Origin: Maricaulis sp.
GTDB taxonomy: Bacteria > Pseudomonadota > Alphaproteobacteria > Caulobacterales > Maricaulaceae
Assembly: GCA_002692855.1 (NCBI GenBank)
Contig: NZMJ01000032.1
Location: 5,001-69,000, forward strand
Length of the DNA: 64,000 bases
Reading direction: 5' to 3'
The position numbers and the translations under genes are program-made. The notes under the pieces are model-generated. The model did not search any database. It was not told where the DNA came from and saw only the letters and a list, made by a program, of their open reading frames with translations. Positions 806 to 6,782 of this stretch are shown here, in pieces (position 1 is the first letter of the stretch; every line of letters begins with the position of its first letter).

Positions 806-1243
806 ATGGCACTGCACAAGACCGCCCTCATGGTTTGCGCCGCAATCGGCGCTCTTTCGACTGCTCCGGCCTTCGGTCAGAGCGCATCCGACTTCCAGCG
901 CCCCTGGGGTACGAACCCGGGTCAGGCGACCGAGCCGTACCGCGCCGGGACGCGCGACCAGAACGGCAACCGCGTCGTCGTGAACGGGGTCATGCAGACC
1001 GGGGTCGGTGTGCAGGCTGCGGGCCAGGGCACAGGCGGGGTCGGCGGAAATTCCAACTCCGGGAACCAGTATTCAAGCGCCACGGCGATCGGCAACCAGC
1101 TGAACGTCGTCGTCAACGGCAACTACAACACCGTCGTCGTGAACTCCACGCAGACCAATAACGGCAACGTCAACGCCACGTCGGGTACCGGCGGCAATGG
1201 CGATCGTGAACCCAATTGGGAGTACGCACCCAATGACCGCTAA
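806..1243 (+). CDS. hfaA: Holdfast anchor protein HfaA
   Basis: 145 aa secreted protein with an N-terminal signal peptide (cleavage near AFGQ, residue 25), then a Gly/Asn/Val-rich body with curlin-like alternation (VVVNGNYNTVVVN). In Caulobacter, HfaA is a polymerising surface protein that helps bind the holdfast adhesin to the cell envelope. The ATG at 806 follows a GGAGAGGA ribosome site and starts the signal peptide exactly. It overlaps hfaB by 11 bp, so the two are probably translationally coupled. The identification rests on the three-gene order hfaA-hfaB-hfaD and protein character rather than on an alignment. Confidence 0.8.
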   Translation: MALHKTALMVCAAIGALSTAPAFGQSASDFQRPWGTNPGQATEPYRAGTRDQNGNRVVVNGVMQTGVGVQAAGQGTGGVGGNSNSGNQYSSATAIGNQLNVVVNGNYNTVVVNSTQTNNGNVNATSGTGGNGDREPNWEYAPNDR

Positions 1244-2228
1244 GAAAATCCTGTCCGCGGCCATCGGGGCGCTGGCCCTGGCGGGCTGCGCCGTGACGCC
1301 GAATTCCGGCAGCGACGGGCTCTATGCCCGCCCGATCGGCAATGCGCCGGTGACGCCGAACCCGACGCCGTATTCCGAAGCGCTGGTCTGCCTCGCAAGC
1401 TATGCGCGCGGCCGGGGTCATGCTTCGCCGCGTGTCGCGGTGGGCCGGATTTCCGACTTCACCGGTGCAGTGGGCGCTGAAGGTGGTCCTGCTGTGACAC
1501 AGGGCGCATCGCTGATGGCGATGTCGGCACTGTCCAAGGCCGGCATCAACCTGGTGGAGCGTTTCGACACTTCAGTGTCAGAGCTCGAGATGCGCTACGC
1601 CAACAACCGGTTGATCGGAGACGAGGCCGAAGATCAGGGTTTCCGTCAGATTTATGCCGGATCCATCCCGGGGTCAGATTTTCATCTGGTGGGTGGCATC
1701 ACGGAAGTGAACCAGAATATCCGTAGCCAGGGCGTCGACGTGTTTGGCGGCAATCGGGTCGATTCCAGCCCGTCCGGCCTCTTCAATGCCCGCATGTATG
1801 TGATGAATGTCGGCATCGACCTGCGCCTGGTGAATACGCGCACGATGGAAGTTGTCGACGTCATCTCCTACCAGAAGCAGATTATCGGGCGCGAGATCAG
1901 CGCCGGCGTGTTCTCGTTCTGGGACAGCGCGGTGATCGACGTCTCGGCTGGCGGCCGCTCAATGGAGCCCGTGCAGCTTGCCGTGCGCTCGCTGATCGAG
2001 CGCGCCGTCCTCGAATTTTCTGCAACCCTTTATGGCGTCGAAGCCGGGGCCGTGTGCCGGTTCGATGATCCGCTCGGCCCGACCAATGCGACCGGCGGCG
2101 TCAACACCCACACGGCCTATGCGACCGGAGCGGAGATTTCCAATGTCCAAGCACGCCAAAGCGTTGATCGCGGGCACGAGCGCCGCGACCCTGATGTTCG
2201 CGTCGGCCTTCGCGGACGATACAACTGA
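1233..2228 (+). CDS. hfaB: Holdfast secretion/anchor lipoprotein HfaB (CsgG family)
   Basis: 331 aa CsgG-family outer-membrane lipoprotein. The signal peptide ends in a lipobox (LAGC, Cys19). The mature part has CsgG features: the RVAVGRISDFTG strand near residues 68-80, a central membrane-hairpin region and a C-terminal helix rich in AVRSLIERAVLEF. By analogy with curli secretion and with Caulobacter HfaB, it should form the outer-membrane channel exporting HfaA and HfaD. The start at 1233 lies inside hfaA. The 3' end overlaps hfaD by 86 bp, an unusually long overlap. Confidence 0.88.
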   Translation: MTAKKILSAAIGALALAGCAVTPNSGSDGLYARPIGNAPVTPNPTPYSEALVCLASYARGRGHASPRVAVGRISDFTGAVGAEGGPAVTQGASLMAMSALSKAGINLVERFDTSVSELEMRYANNRLIGDEAEDQGFRQIYAGSIPGSDFHLVGGITEVNQNIRSQGVDVFGGNRVDSSPSGLFNARMYVMNVGIDLRLVNTRTMEVVDVISYQKQIIGREISAGVFSFWDSAVIDVSAGGRSMEPVQLAVRSLIERAVLEFSATLYGVEAGAVCRFDDPLGPTNATGGVNTHTAYATGAEISNVQARQSVDRGHERRDPDVRVGLRGRYN

Positions 2229-3378
2229 GATCGAGAATACCCAGGTCAACGACAACGCTGATGTCCTGTCGCTTCTGAGGCTGGATACCGGCGATGCGGG
2301 GAATGCCACGCTCGCCACGGCCGCCATGGGCAATGCGCTCGAAGTGGACGTGAACGAAGCGCACGACGTCTCGAACGACCAGACTTTCTCGGGCAATGTC
2401 CGTGCTGAGGCCGAAACTTCGCTGCACCACATCGATGGCACGGCGATTACGGCTGCGTCGGCTACGGGCAATGCGGCCTATCTCGATTTCGAGGACGACA
2501 GCGACATCGTGTCGACCCAGACTGCGGCGGACGGCTCGACCGTCTCGGCCGCTGCGACGCTGAATGTCGCTTCCTATGCAATGAGCTCGATCACGGCCTC
2601 GCAGGCTGCGGCCAACGCGGTCGAGATCAACGCTGAAACGGCATCCATCCAGGGCGACTTCGTCCAGGACAGCGGCGCCGACGTGACGGCCACCACCATC
2701 CTGAATGCGCCGACCGGCGGACTGGGCTGGACTGCGGCAGGTGCAGCGGCGGCCGTTGGCAACAACATCCAAACGACCGGTTTCGATGCCGACCAGATCC
2801 TCGATGTCGACCAGACCAATCGCGGGCGTATCCGCGCCGACATGCAGGTTGAAGCCGGGGGCGGGTCGGAATTCATGACGGTCGCCGCGCAGGCCCAGGG
2901 CAATGGCGTCGATCTGAACAACCAGTGGGGCTATGCCCACATTCAGGGTCAGCAGACCAATGACGGCGAGGTCGAAGCGAACACGAATGTCGTGATCAGC
3001 GATTTCGATATCGACAGCATCATTGTCTCGTCAGAAGGCATCGGCAATTCGGCCCTGCTCTCCAACCAGGGCGCCGACACCTATATGGGCGTCACTCAGG
3101 CCAACAATGCCAATGTGCGCGCCACCACCCGCTTTGAAGGCGGCGTGGGCGGCGAAGTCACCGGTTCGGCCGCCGCCTACGGCAACGCGGCGACCAGCTA
3201 TGTCTGCTCGAACTGCCCGGGCGTCGAAGCGCGAGGCAATGTGAACCAGACCAATTCGGGCAATGTGACTTCGACCTTCCAGACGACCTACCAGTCAGGC
3301 TGGGGCGTGATGGGCTCGGCGACGGCGGTCGGCAACTCGGCGACCTTCGTCAGCGAACGTCCGGGCGAAAGCGACTAG
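2143..3378 (+). CDS. hfaD: Holdfast anchor protein HfaD
   Basis: 411 aa secreted protein with a signal peptide (cleavage after ASAFA, about residue 23). The mature region is a long series of degenerate repeats of about 60-70 residues, with recurring motifs such as GNA, TQTN and NSGNV, fitting a beta-solenoid surface adhesin. A single Cys pair (CSNC) lies near residue 355. In Caulobacter, HfaD is an outer-membrane protein needed with HfaA and HfaB to keep the holdfast on the cell. The start was chosen because the ATG at 2143 begins the signal peptide and has GGAG about 9 bases upstream. It is the last gene of the operon, followed by a terminator. Confidence 0.78.
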   Translation: MSKHAKALIAGTSAATLMFASAFADDTTEIENTQVNDNADVLSLLRLDTGDAGNATLATAAMGNALEVDVNEAHDVSNDQTFSGNVRAEAETSLHHIDGTAITAASATGNAAYLDFEDDSDIVSTQTAADGSTVSAAATLNVASYAMSSITASQAAANAVEINAETASIQGDFVQDSGADVTATTILNAPTGGLGWTAAGAAAAVGNNIQTTGFDADQILDVDQTNRGRIRADMQVEAGGGSEFMTVAAQAQGNGVDLNNQWGYAHIQGQQTNDGEVEANTNVVISDFDIDSIIVSSEGIGNSALLSNQGADTYMGVTQANNANVRATTRFEGGVGGEVTGSAAAYGNAATSYVCSNCPGVEARGNVNQTNSGNVTSTFQTTYQSGWGVMGSATAVGNSATFVSERPGESD

Positions 3379-3797: not shown

Positions 3798-4721
3798 TTA
3801 GCGGTAACCGCCCACGCCGCCATCCAGCATCAGCGTCATGTTGGTCGCGGTTGCGACCTCGCGGCGGTGTTCGACCATTTCGGTATAGGTCTCTTCGCGG
3901 CGCAAATAGACGACGCGCAAGCCCGGACCGTATTGGCGCAACAGTGACCGTTCATTGCAGTTCCTGCGAGGTTCCTGGGTCGCGCAATAGACCCGGCCAC
4001 CGGTGGCATGGCGAAGAGCCTCGCCGCGGGCACACGCCAGCGTAAAGGCATCGTCCCAGATATCCGCCCCGTCCACGCGCCAGCCGATCGTCACCTGCAT
4101 TGCCGTTCCGGCAACGCAGCGGAAAATCTCGCCGTCATATTCCGGAGCAACGCGTTCATCCGGATCCGGACGCGACGCCGGGTGCGGTGTGCCGCGATCG
4201 TCGATGCAGACCGCGCGGATGACCCGCCACTCTTCCAGGATCCGTGTGCGTTCTTCGGCACGCATCTCGGTTTCGATGACACCGGCCAGCGTCAGACCGG
4301 TGATCGCCGTCGCGGGAGGCGGAGCCCCCATCGCGCCACCGCCTCCGCCCGCAATGGCAATCGCGGTTGCGCCGCCCGATGCGCCAGCACCGGCATTGGC
4401 GCCGGCATTTGCGTTCGAGTTCACGTTGACGTTGGTGTTGACCTCGACATTCGTATTGACGTTGATGCCAATATTGATGCGCGGGCCGTGAATGGTGATG
4501 TTGGGCGGGCGAACGCGATGCCCGCCGCCGCCGCCGCAACCGCCGTGACCGCAGCTTCCACCACCGCCACCATGACCGCCGCCGCCGCAGGTCGTGCCGC
4601 AACCGCTACCACCGCTTCCGCCGCCGCCAATGGCCGCAGCTTCGGGCATGCCGACAGGTGATCCGATCAGGGCCACACCAAACAGTGCTGCCACAAAAGC
4701 GTGCCGTGCTGAAACGCGCAT
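3798..4721 (-). CDS. Secreted Gly/Cys/Asn-repeat protein, unknown function
   Basis: 307 aa. Residues 1-30 are a signal peptide. Residues 31-68 are nearly all Gly with four Cys (41, 45, 57, 62) and His. Residues 75-110 alternate Asn with hydrophobic or small residues (NVNTNVEVNTNV and similar), recalling the Asn ladder of HfaA. Residues 111-135 are Gly/Ala. The C-terminal half (about 140-307) is a globular-looking domain with five more Cys and no motif I recognise. The start at 4721 has AAGGAG before it and starts the signal peptide. It is convergent to hfaD and divergent from the PAS gene. A role in the surface layer or holdfast is inference from context and composition only. Confidence 0.6.
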   Translation of the reverse strand: MRVSARHAFVAALFGVALIGSPVGMPEAAAIGGGGSGGSGCGTTCGGGGHGGGGGSCGHGGCGGGGGHRVRPPNITIHGPRINIGINVNTNVEVNTNVNVNSNANAGANAGAGASGGATAIAIAGGGGGAMGAPPPATAITGLTLAGVIETEMRAEERTRILEEWRVIRAVCIDDRGTPHPASRPDPDERVAPEYDGEIFRCVAGTAMQVTIGWRVDGADIWDDAFTLACARGEALRHATGGRVYCATQEPRRNCNERSLLRQYGPGLRVVYLRREETYTEMVEHRREVATATNMTLMLDGGVGGYR

Positions 4722-4881
4722 GGTCGAACTCCTTTGTTCCTGGAGGGTGTCCTGCAAGGGACAGGCCGTTTTCGCCGGTGACGTGTCCGCTGCTCGCGCG
4801 ACAGGGGTATGGCCCCGAATTTGAAGACGATTGACGACGGAAGGCCGGACAGGGGTTCGGTTGCAGTCATCGAGCCACACC

Positions 4882-5439
4882 ATGCATGCGCATACCGAGA
4901 CATTGCTGGCCTATTGGGAGTCGCGGCGAAACGGCCGACTGACCCCTTCGCGCGCCGATATCGTCCCCGCCGACCTCTCGGGACTGTTGTCCTGGCTGTT
5001 CATTCTGGAACGCGCAGACGCGGAGCATCATGTCTTCCGCCTCGCAGGAACCGGCCTGTGCCGGCTTTATTCCCGCGAGATGCGCGCGCAGAACTTCCTC
5101 GACCTCTGGCGCGGGTTCGACCGTCACCACATTCGCGCGCTGATCGAATCGACGCTCGCAGTTCCGGCACCCGCCACCGCGAGCGCACAGGCTTATGCGC
5201 TCGACGGTCAGACGATTGACGCAGAAATAGCGTTGCTGCCGCTGCGGGGGGCTTCAGGCCAGGCAGACCGCGTCCTGGGTCTTTATCAACCCCTCAGCAG
5301 GCTGGACCTGCTGCAAGGCCGCCCGGTGGTCAGCCAGAAGCTGACCGGGATCAATCCGCCTGCCCGCGACATCTACACACCCGTTGCGATGCGGCCCTTG
5401 CCAGAGCCGCCCTTCGAGCTCGTTGCAAACGACCGCTGA
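4882..5439 (+). CDS. PAS-domain protein (PAS_5/DUF1457-like)
   Basis: 185 aa cytosolic protein. Residues 1-120 resemble the alphaproteobacterial PAS_5 family: an opening helix (LLAYWESRRNGRLTPSRADI), then strands FRLAGTGLCRLYSREM with the typical G-T-x-L pattern. No enzymatic output domain follows, and the tail (about 150-185) is Pro-rich and probably disordered. Such stand-alone PAS proteins are poorly understood. In Caulobacterales several act in cell-cycle or c-di-GMP signalling, but nothing in the sequence proves that here. The ATG at 4882 was preferred over an upstream in-frame start because the family begins at the TLLAYW helix. Confidence 0.62.
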   Translation: MHAHTETLLAYWESRRNGRLTPSRADIVPADLSGLLSWLFILERADAEHHVFRLAGTGLCRLYSREMRAQNFLDLWRGFDRHHIRALIESTLAVPAPATASAQAYALDGQTIDAEIALLPLRGASGQADRVLGLYQPLSRLDLLQGRPVVSQKLTGINPPARDIYTPVAMRPLPEPPFELVANDR

Positions 5440-6165: not shown

Positions 6166-6263
6166 ACCAAAGTGCACTCGATGAGTCGGGAATGAACGGG
6201 GCGGCCCGATTCTTGCCCCACGCACACATTATGTTCCGTTTGAGAACGAAATGAGTGTCCGAC

Positions 6264-6782
6264 ATGCCGCGTGATGATGGAAGTACGAAGACCTGGTTCG
6301 TGAAGGTCGATGGCCGTGTCTATGGTCCGTACACGGCTGCGCAAATGCGTGCCTATGTCACCGAAGGGCGCGTCGCCGCACACTCCCTTGTCAGCATCGA
6401 ACGCGATACGGCCTGGAAGCCGGCGGCCGACATCGAGCTGCTTCGCGGCTGGCTGGACGAGGCGCGCGGCGCACGGCGGCCTGAGACGGATGCAAGCCAA
6501 CTCGCCAATTTCATCGTGATTGCCCAGACCAGCGCCGATTCGTCGGCGTCGTTTGAAGCGGCGATGGGACATCTCGGCCAGTGCGTGCGGATTTCAGACG
6601 GGGCGTGGCTTCTGCGTGCCGGCCTGACGGCAACCACGCTGCGCAATGAATTGTCTCACCTGCTCGACCGCGATGACCGCCTGATGGTGGTCGATGCGAC
6701 CCATGACCGGACCGCCTGGTTCAATCTGGGTCAGGATACCGACCAGCAAATTCGTGACCTGTGGGGCCGCAAGCCCAACTGA
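6264..6782 (+). CDS. GYF_2 (DUF4339) domain protein
   Basis: 172 aa. Residues 5-60 match the bacterial GYF_2 pattern: an opening Trp (WFVKVDGRVYGPYT), the turn QMRAYVTEGRV, then a second conserved Trp (TAWKPAADI). GYF_2 domains are small modules, often in membrane proteins, thought to bind peptides. The rest (about 75-172) is an alpha/beta domain ending in DRTAWFNLGQDTDQQIRDLW, with no family I recognise. A GTG at 6255 is an alternative start three codons earlier. It is convergent with the carbonic anhydrase gene, 6 bp away. Confidence 0.62.
   Translation: MPRDDGSTKTWFVKVDGRVYGPYTAAQMRAYVTEGRVAAHSLVSIERDTAWKPAADIELLRGWLDEARGARRPETDASQLANFIVIAQTSADSSASFEAAMGHLGQCVRISDGAWLLRAGLTATTLRNELSHLLDRDDRLMVVDATHDRTAWFNLGQDTDQQIRDLWGRKPN

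Follow-up and report, generated by a model that had tools for sequence, protein, structure and literature searches.

In Caulobacter, the closest described system, the holdfast is anchored with the help of HfaA, HfaB and HfaD. Cryo-tomography has located the CsgG-like HfaB on the periplasmic side of the outer membrane and HfaA and HfaD at the cell surface; in the same report HfaA forms SDS-resistant multimers and is stated to resemble the curlin CsgA (PMC6707917). The hfaB gene carries the locus tag CCNA_02712 (PMC12340889). A further gene, CCNA_02722, was named hfaE in 2019 in a genome-wide screen of Caulobacter crescentus, where its product is described as having a predicted signal peptide, as belonging to no known family and as being present in many stalked bacteria. 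Upon deletion of hfaE, holdfasts stayed on the glass with few cells attached, which corresponds to holdfast shedding, and the fitness profile of the mutant was taken to indicate modest defects in adhesion (PMC6372794). One published table gives hfaA as CC2628 and also contains the hypothetical protein CC2639; both were listed in 2007 among the proteins common to Caulobacter, Oceanicaulis and Maricaulis (PMC2241609).

We analysed a stretch of 64,000 nucleotides from Maricaulis sp. (assembly GCA_002692855.1, contig NZMJ01000032.1, positions 5,001 to 69,000 of the forward strand), referred to as the window and numbered from its first letter. Near its start lies an hfa locus with the following features:

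806..1243, plus strand: hfaA (NF037934, E 1e-27, over the cut-off)
1233..2228, plus strand: hfaB, CsgG-like (NF037935, 413.7 bits at a cut-off of 300; PF03783)
2143..3378, plus strand: hfaD, convergent to the candidate (NF037936, 167.1 bits at a cut-off of 100)
3798..4721, minus strand: the candidate, very probably the hfaE orthologue as judged from translation, homologues and synteny; 307 aa, stop codon included at 3798-3800
4632..4721, minus strand: signal-peptide-like N-terminus of the candidate, residues about 1-30, by inspection of the translation
4317..4631, minus strand: low-complexity segment, Gly/Cys/His and then an Asn ladder, residues 31-135; differs among genera, pLDDT <50
3801..4316, minus strand: conserved C-terminal domain, residues 136-307 (~172 residues), with five invariant Cys, the RNCNERSLLR stretch and a GGVG tail; predicted all-beta with one helix
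4722..4881, no strand: intergenic region common to the divergent hfaE and PAS_5 genes; holds the element GGGGCCATAC, with close forms in relatives
4882..5439, plus strand: single-domain PAS_5 gene (PF07310, E 8e-33), divergent from hfaE; no other PAS_5 was found in the window genome
5509-6165, plus strand: gene with a PilZ domain, possibly a c-di-GMP receptor, following the PAS_5 gene
6255-6782, plus strand: GYF_2 gene, likewise downstream of PAS_5

HfaA, HfaB and HfaD were assigned with the NCBIfam equivalog models. The candidate faces hfaD tail-on-tail across a gap of 419 bp, in agreement with the preliminary description of this DNA, which had placed it beside hfaABD and convergent to hfaD. 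The hfaB and hfaD frames overlap by 86 bases (2143-2228) in different frames; similar overlaps occur in relatives, e.g. G027 and G126. Several genomes (G062-G064, G070-G072, G074, G077, G091-G094) encode a second, more distant HfaB-like protein elsewhere (41-46% identical), and some genomes of the order have up to four HfaB matches.

The identity of the candidate was approached through Caulobacter. A search of the order with the family profile led to Caulobacter homologues and from these to contig NZ_PJRR01000025.1 of C. vibrioides DSM 9893, a species which we take to be the same as C. crescentus. On this contig hfaA, hfaB and hfaD matched the NCBIfam models over the cut-off, and the homologue of the candidate (L079/L087) is the ninth gene after hfaD, i.e. 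hfaB+10 and hfaA+11. The order of genes is hfaA, hfaB, hfaD, ABC-F ATPase, MASE1 kinase, SBP, ABC ATPase, permease, a hypothetical gene, DUF2336, M16 peptidase and the homologue of the candidate. The spacing of the locus tags agrees with this order, both from CC2628 to CC2639 and from CCNA_02712 to CCNA_02722. With its homologue at this position in the C. vibrioides genome, the window ORF very probably represents HfaE (CCNA_02722; by offset CC2639) in Maricaulis. Like C. crescentus HfaE, the candidate has a predicted signal peptide and no known domain family and occurs in many stalked bacteria, and its homologue in C. vibrioides stands where the tags place hfaE. In contrast to Caulobacter, the window gene is directly convergent to hfaD, whereas the C. 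vibrioides gene is nine genes off, and the N-terminal segment is Gly/His/Cys-rich in the window and Pro/Cys-rich in Caulobacter. Neither the candidate, for which the HfaA equivalog model was included, nor the C. vibrioides homologue matched any NCBIfam family. Since NCBIfam models recognise HfaA, HfaB and HfaD but neither of these two proteins, routine annotation probably leaves the candidate hypothetical.

Homologues were found in 69 of the 137 genomes of the family (Maricaulaceae sample); together with the conservation seen in a 28-sequence alignment this confirms the candidate as a real gene. The protein begins with a hydrophobic, signal-peptide-like stretch (MRVSARHAFVAALFGVALIG...EAAA/IGG) that by inspection has no lipobox. 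A Gly/His/Cys block with Cys at 41, 45, 57 and 62 follows, and residues 31-135 contain 38 Gly, 12 Asn and 12 Ala among 105 residues. In the most Asn-rich stretch of 40 aa, seven N-x-N steps were counted vs 2.3 in shuffles (p 0.002-0.003), so that the Asn ladder exceeds what composition gives. Signal peptide, Gly-His-Cys block, alternating Asn ladder and a C-terminal domain with five Cys had all been named in the preliminary description, and all four were recovered here, the signal peptide by inspection. The block is a mark of the window's genus: other genera are mostly Pro-/Cys-rich in this place or have no block. The ladder stands above shuffles in some relatives and is missing in others. Neither is kept across genera and neither can serve as a conserved signature. 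The block and the ladder, the features first noted, are lineage-specific and hence the least conserved parts of the protein, while the C-terminal domain is conserved. In the 28-sequence alignment 31 of the 33 invariant columns fall inside this domain; they include the five Cys (172, 202, 230, 246 and 255 in the candidate), most of the RNCNERSLLR stretch and the GGVG tail. The five Cys were likewise invariant in a second alignment of 14 sequences.

An AlphaFold model of the C-terminal domain, calculated with the 14 sequences, is all-beta with one helix (pLDDT 76.7, pTM 0.63). In a full-length model nearly all of residues 1-147 had pLDDT <50, leaving the N-terminal half without confident structure. 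The charged residues conserved in the C-terminal domain, along with its invariant Cys, would suit a secreted catalytic domain, and the candidate might then be an enzyme that modifies the holdfast polysaccharide. The profile and fold searches make this very unlikely. Pfam returned no family for the candidate at E up to 1, NCBIfam none as stated above, and the profile had no match among PDB sequences; across the 14 alignment members the sole Pfam match was GTP1_OBG in two, with a best E of 0.006. Foldseek searches of the C-terminal domain model gave no match at E<=0.001 against PDB or BFVD, and the top BFVD row, an uncharacterised Caulobacter phage protein, was not significant (E 0.03, TM 0.19, rmsd 11.5). 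The best VIA match reached Z 2.9 with an rmsd of 4.7 over 79 aligned residues, and the VIA matches as a group (YEATS, transthyretin, DOCK8 and other chains; Z 2.0-2.9) were regarded as noise. A known enzyme domain is made unlikely by the absence of a significant match in Pfam, NCBIfam, the PDB profile search and Foldseek, together with the weak VIA matches. The preliminary description had called the C-terminal domain new and had named a known enzyme domain as the result that would speak against its reading; neither an enzyme domain nor a known fold was found in these searches, and a weak or missing fold match is no proof of a new fold.

The likeness to HfaA noted in the preliminary description held for composition but not for sequence. 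Both proteins are secreted, have an Asn-rich stretch and share a gene cluster; however, HfaA has 145 aa, lacks the five-Cys C-terminal domain, and aligned with the candidate by BLASTP at E 3.6 only, no significant similarity, so that a relation by sequence was rejected. The ladder of HfaA itself did not exceed shuffles (p 0.19). The locus also resembles the curli system of CsgA and CsgG in that a CsgG-like HfaB (PF03783) is accompanied by a Gly/Asn-rich secreted partner; it differs in that Pfam, with matches accepted up to E 1, showed no curlin repeat in the candidate.

We then compared the distribution of the candidate with that of the hfa genes. Among the 137 family genomes, 69 contained the candidate, 67 HfaB and 67 HfaD, and 66 had both the candidate and HfaD, with weak matches omitted from the counts (the CsgG-like HfaB of G049 and G053, and HfaD of G103). 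Two of the three candidate-only genomes are incomplete (65% and 77%) and in the third 665 bp separate the match from the end of its contig; the single HfaD-only genome is 81% complete. In the order, with the candidate and HfaB searches taken as one sample of 398 genomes, the candidate and HfaB occurred together in 197 genomes, the candidate without HfaB in 13, HfaB without the candidate in 3 (G146, G258 and G311) and neither in 185; here HfaB was counted only over the family cut-off, as inferred from E-values (200 genomes), and 34 genomes with weaker matches were scored as negative. Six of the 13 candidate-only genomes have a weak HfaB match and HfaD over the cut-off. Five of these belong to one genus, in which other members hold several HfaB copies, and we suspect contig breaks. 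In the remaining seven neither HfaB nor HfaD was detectable: G217 (99% complete), G411 (95%), G069 (99%, match 665 bp from a contig end), and G307, G315, G346 and G431 (80-87%). Completeness does not explain G217 and G411. G146 and G258 are of one genus; G146 also has no HfaD, and in G258 HfaD is found only under the cut-off.

In the class, 17 of 385 genomes carried the candidate, three inside the window's order and 14 outside. All 17 had HfaB over the cut-off, including 14 of 14 outside the order. In the reverse direction, 19 of 347 genomes had HfaB over the cut-off and 17 of these had the candidate, the other two (G522, G636) belonging to one genus. The two class samples differ (385 vs 347 genomes): G146 is without the candidate in the first and, despite its HfaB, missing among the matches of the second. 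As HfaB was found there in the order search, G146 counts as a further HfaB-only case for the class. The co-occurrence that the preliminary description had proposed for checking was observed at every level, homologues tracking HfaB in family, order and class. Nor are homologues widespread where hfa genes are lacking, the other result that the preliminary description had named as speaking against it (candidate without HfaB in 13 of 398 genomes in the order and in 0 of 14 carriers outside it). These counts ignore kinship; genomes of one clade are not independent, and the Fisher value of the order table should therefore not be read as a fair probability.

Co-inheritance could merely reflect linkage. 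In the 66 family genomes with candidate and HfaD, the two genes lie within 3 kb in 35, all convergent, and 3-20 kb apart in nine, seven of them convergent. They share a contig at a distance of more than 20 kb in eight and are on different contigs in 14, the latter being weak evidence for unlinked genes in draft genomes. Four of the eight exceed 1 Mb; the largest gap is 1.85 Mb in G093, or ~1.18 Mb the other way round if the contig is circular. Since both genes are kept in these 22 of 66 genomes, linkage does not account for their co-inheritance. The same variable gene order could be taken to mean that the candidate is an unrelated secreted protein which came to lie beside hfaD by chance. We consider this extremely unlikely: both genes are still present in those 22 genomes and outside the order, which speaks against a chance neighbour, and the Caulobacter orthologue defined by synteny has a shedding phenotype (PMC6372794).

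Taken together, co-occurrence with HfaB even where unlinked and the shedding phenotype of the Caulobacter orthologue make it well supported that the candidate is a component of the holdfast anchor. The preliminary description had thought of an unrecognised component of the surface anchor; the anchor part of this proposal stands, but the protein was not unrecognised, as it very probably corresponds to HfaE, named in 2019. An HfaE relative was present in 197 of 200 genomes of the order sample and 17 of 19 of the class sample in which the HfaB equivalog was found. Being nearly always present with HfaB, linked or not, HfaE appears to be an ancestral part of the anchor rather than an accessory.

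How HfaE might act can be outlined as follows. After Sec export and cleavage of its signal peptide, the protein would cross by way of the CsgG-like HfaB channel, or together with it, and assemble with HfaA and HfaD at the polar surface. The flexible, low-complexity N-terminal half may be a linker or may form fibres, and the conserved all-beta domain with its Cys at the C-terminus would do the actual work of tying the holdfast polysaccharide to the anchor. For the window organism we infer HfaB-dependent export of HfaE, disulphides and such a tethering mechanism. The candidate could also belong to the anchor system without being exported by HfaB, as a periplasmic or outer-membrane-associated assembly factor for HfaA and HfaD; CsgE and CsgF are the curli counterparts of such an accessory factor. 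A C-terminal domain that is predicted to be structured and contains Cys would fit this role, as would the lack of a curlin-like match, and co-occurrence with HfaB suits substrate and accessory alike. However, in a 2022 study in J Bacteriol HfaE reportedly co-localises with the holdfast, requires HfaB and gives rise to SDS-resistant species, and we regard an assembly factor as rather unlikely. Export of HfaE by HfaB is the reading that we prefer.

The second conserved trait of the locus is the PAS_5 gene divergent from hfaE. A PAS_5 gene is likewise divergent from the C. vibrioides homologue (E 5e-46); by count it would be CCNA_02723 in C. crescentus. With a PAS model built from the neighbours themselves, 82 of 90 unique loci, including 9 of 11 outside the order, had a divergent PAS_5 match no more than 2 kb from the hfaE homologue, though not in every case as the adjacent gene. 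Loci agreeing in the final 100 residues of the matched frame were counted once; L085 was too short and was left out. The loci without a divergent PAS_5 are L033, L034, L035, L044, L066, L076, L109 and L112; in L035 and L044 a PilZ gene lies ~500 bp from hfaE. Other PAS_5 matches in the same loci numbered two in 1,079 kb. In G000, G063 and G093 the hfaE-adjacent PAS_5 is the only one found in the genome, and in G093 it stays beside hfaE with hfaABD far off. G563, a genome from outside the order, speaks against the pairing being universal: of its 16 PAS_5 genes the nearest lies ~9 kb from the hfaE homologue. Two PAS_5 genes were found in the Caulobacter genome G266. One lies beside hfaE; the second is probably MopJ (CCNA_00999), a single-domain PAS_5 cell-cycle regulator (PMC4432633). 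MopJ and the hfaE-linked protein are thus both single-domain PF07310 proteins, encoded at different loci. In the literature searched (PAS_5 or MopJ in Caulobacter) no association of hfaE with PAS_5 was found, and the locus tags expected for the PAS_5 neighbour gave unrelated papers among the matches listed.

The intergenic region shared by hfaE and PAS_5 contains the element GGGCCATA in 24 of 82 loci vs 0.65 in letter shuffles; examples, shown from the window's family, are the window (4722-4881), L003, L009 and L014. The element could be part of a promoter. CtrA-like sites (4 of 82 loci vs 2.9 expected) and GANTC (28 vs 48.6 expected, 82 loci) were not enriched in this region, all site counts being set against simple letter shuffles and the intergenic ends being ends of profile matches, so that some pieces reach into coding sequence. 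Of 45 loci with sufficient sequence, 14 have a PilZ gene at most 3.5 kb from hfaE and oriented like PAS_5, an arrangement like that of the window; GYF was found within this distance of hfaE in 7 of the 45. We tentatively suggest, as a possibility short of an even chance, that hfaE and the divergent PAS_5 gene form an old functional pair in which PAS_5 senses a signal and controls anchoring, in some lineages together with the PilZ neighbour.

New here are the co-inheritance with HfaB across the class, independent of linkage, and the conserved pairing of hfaE with PAS_5. A previously unannotated gene gains a name and a function, and the Caulobacter result is extended to the class. The part of HfaE to study is the conserved five-Cys C-terminal domain rather than the repeat-like N-terminus. 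The divergent PAS_5 gene is a concrete candidate regulator of holdfast anchoring; if the suggested pairing is true, irreversible attachment would have an unstudied regulator, one that stays with hfaE even outside the hfaABD cluster.
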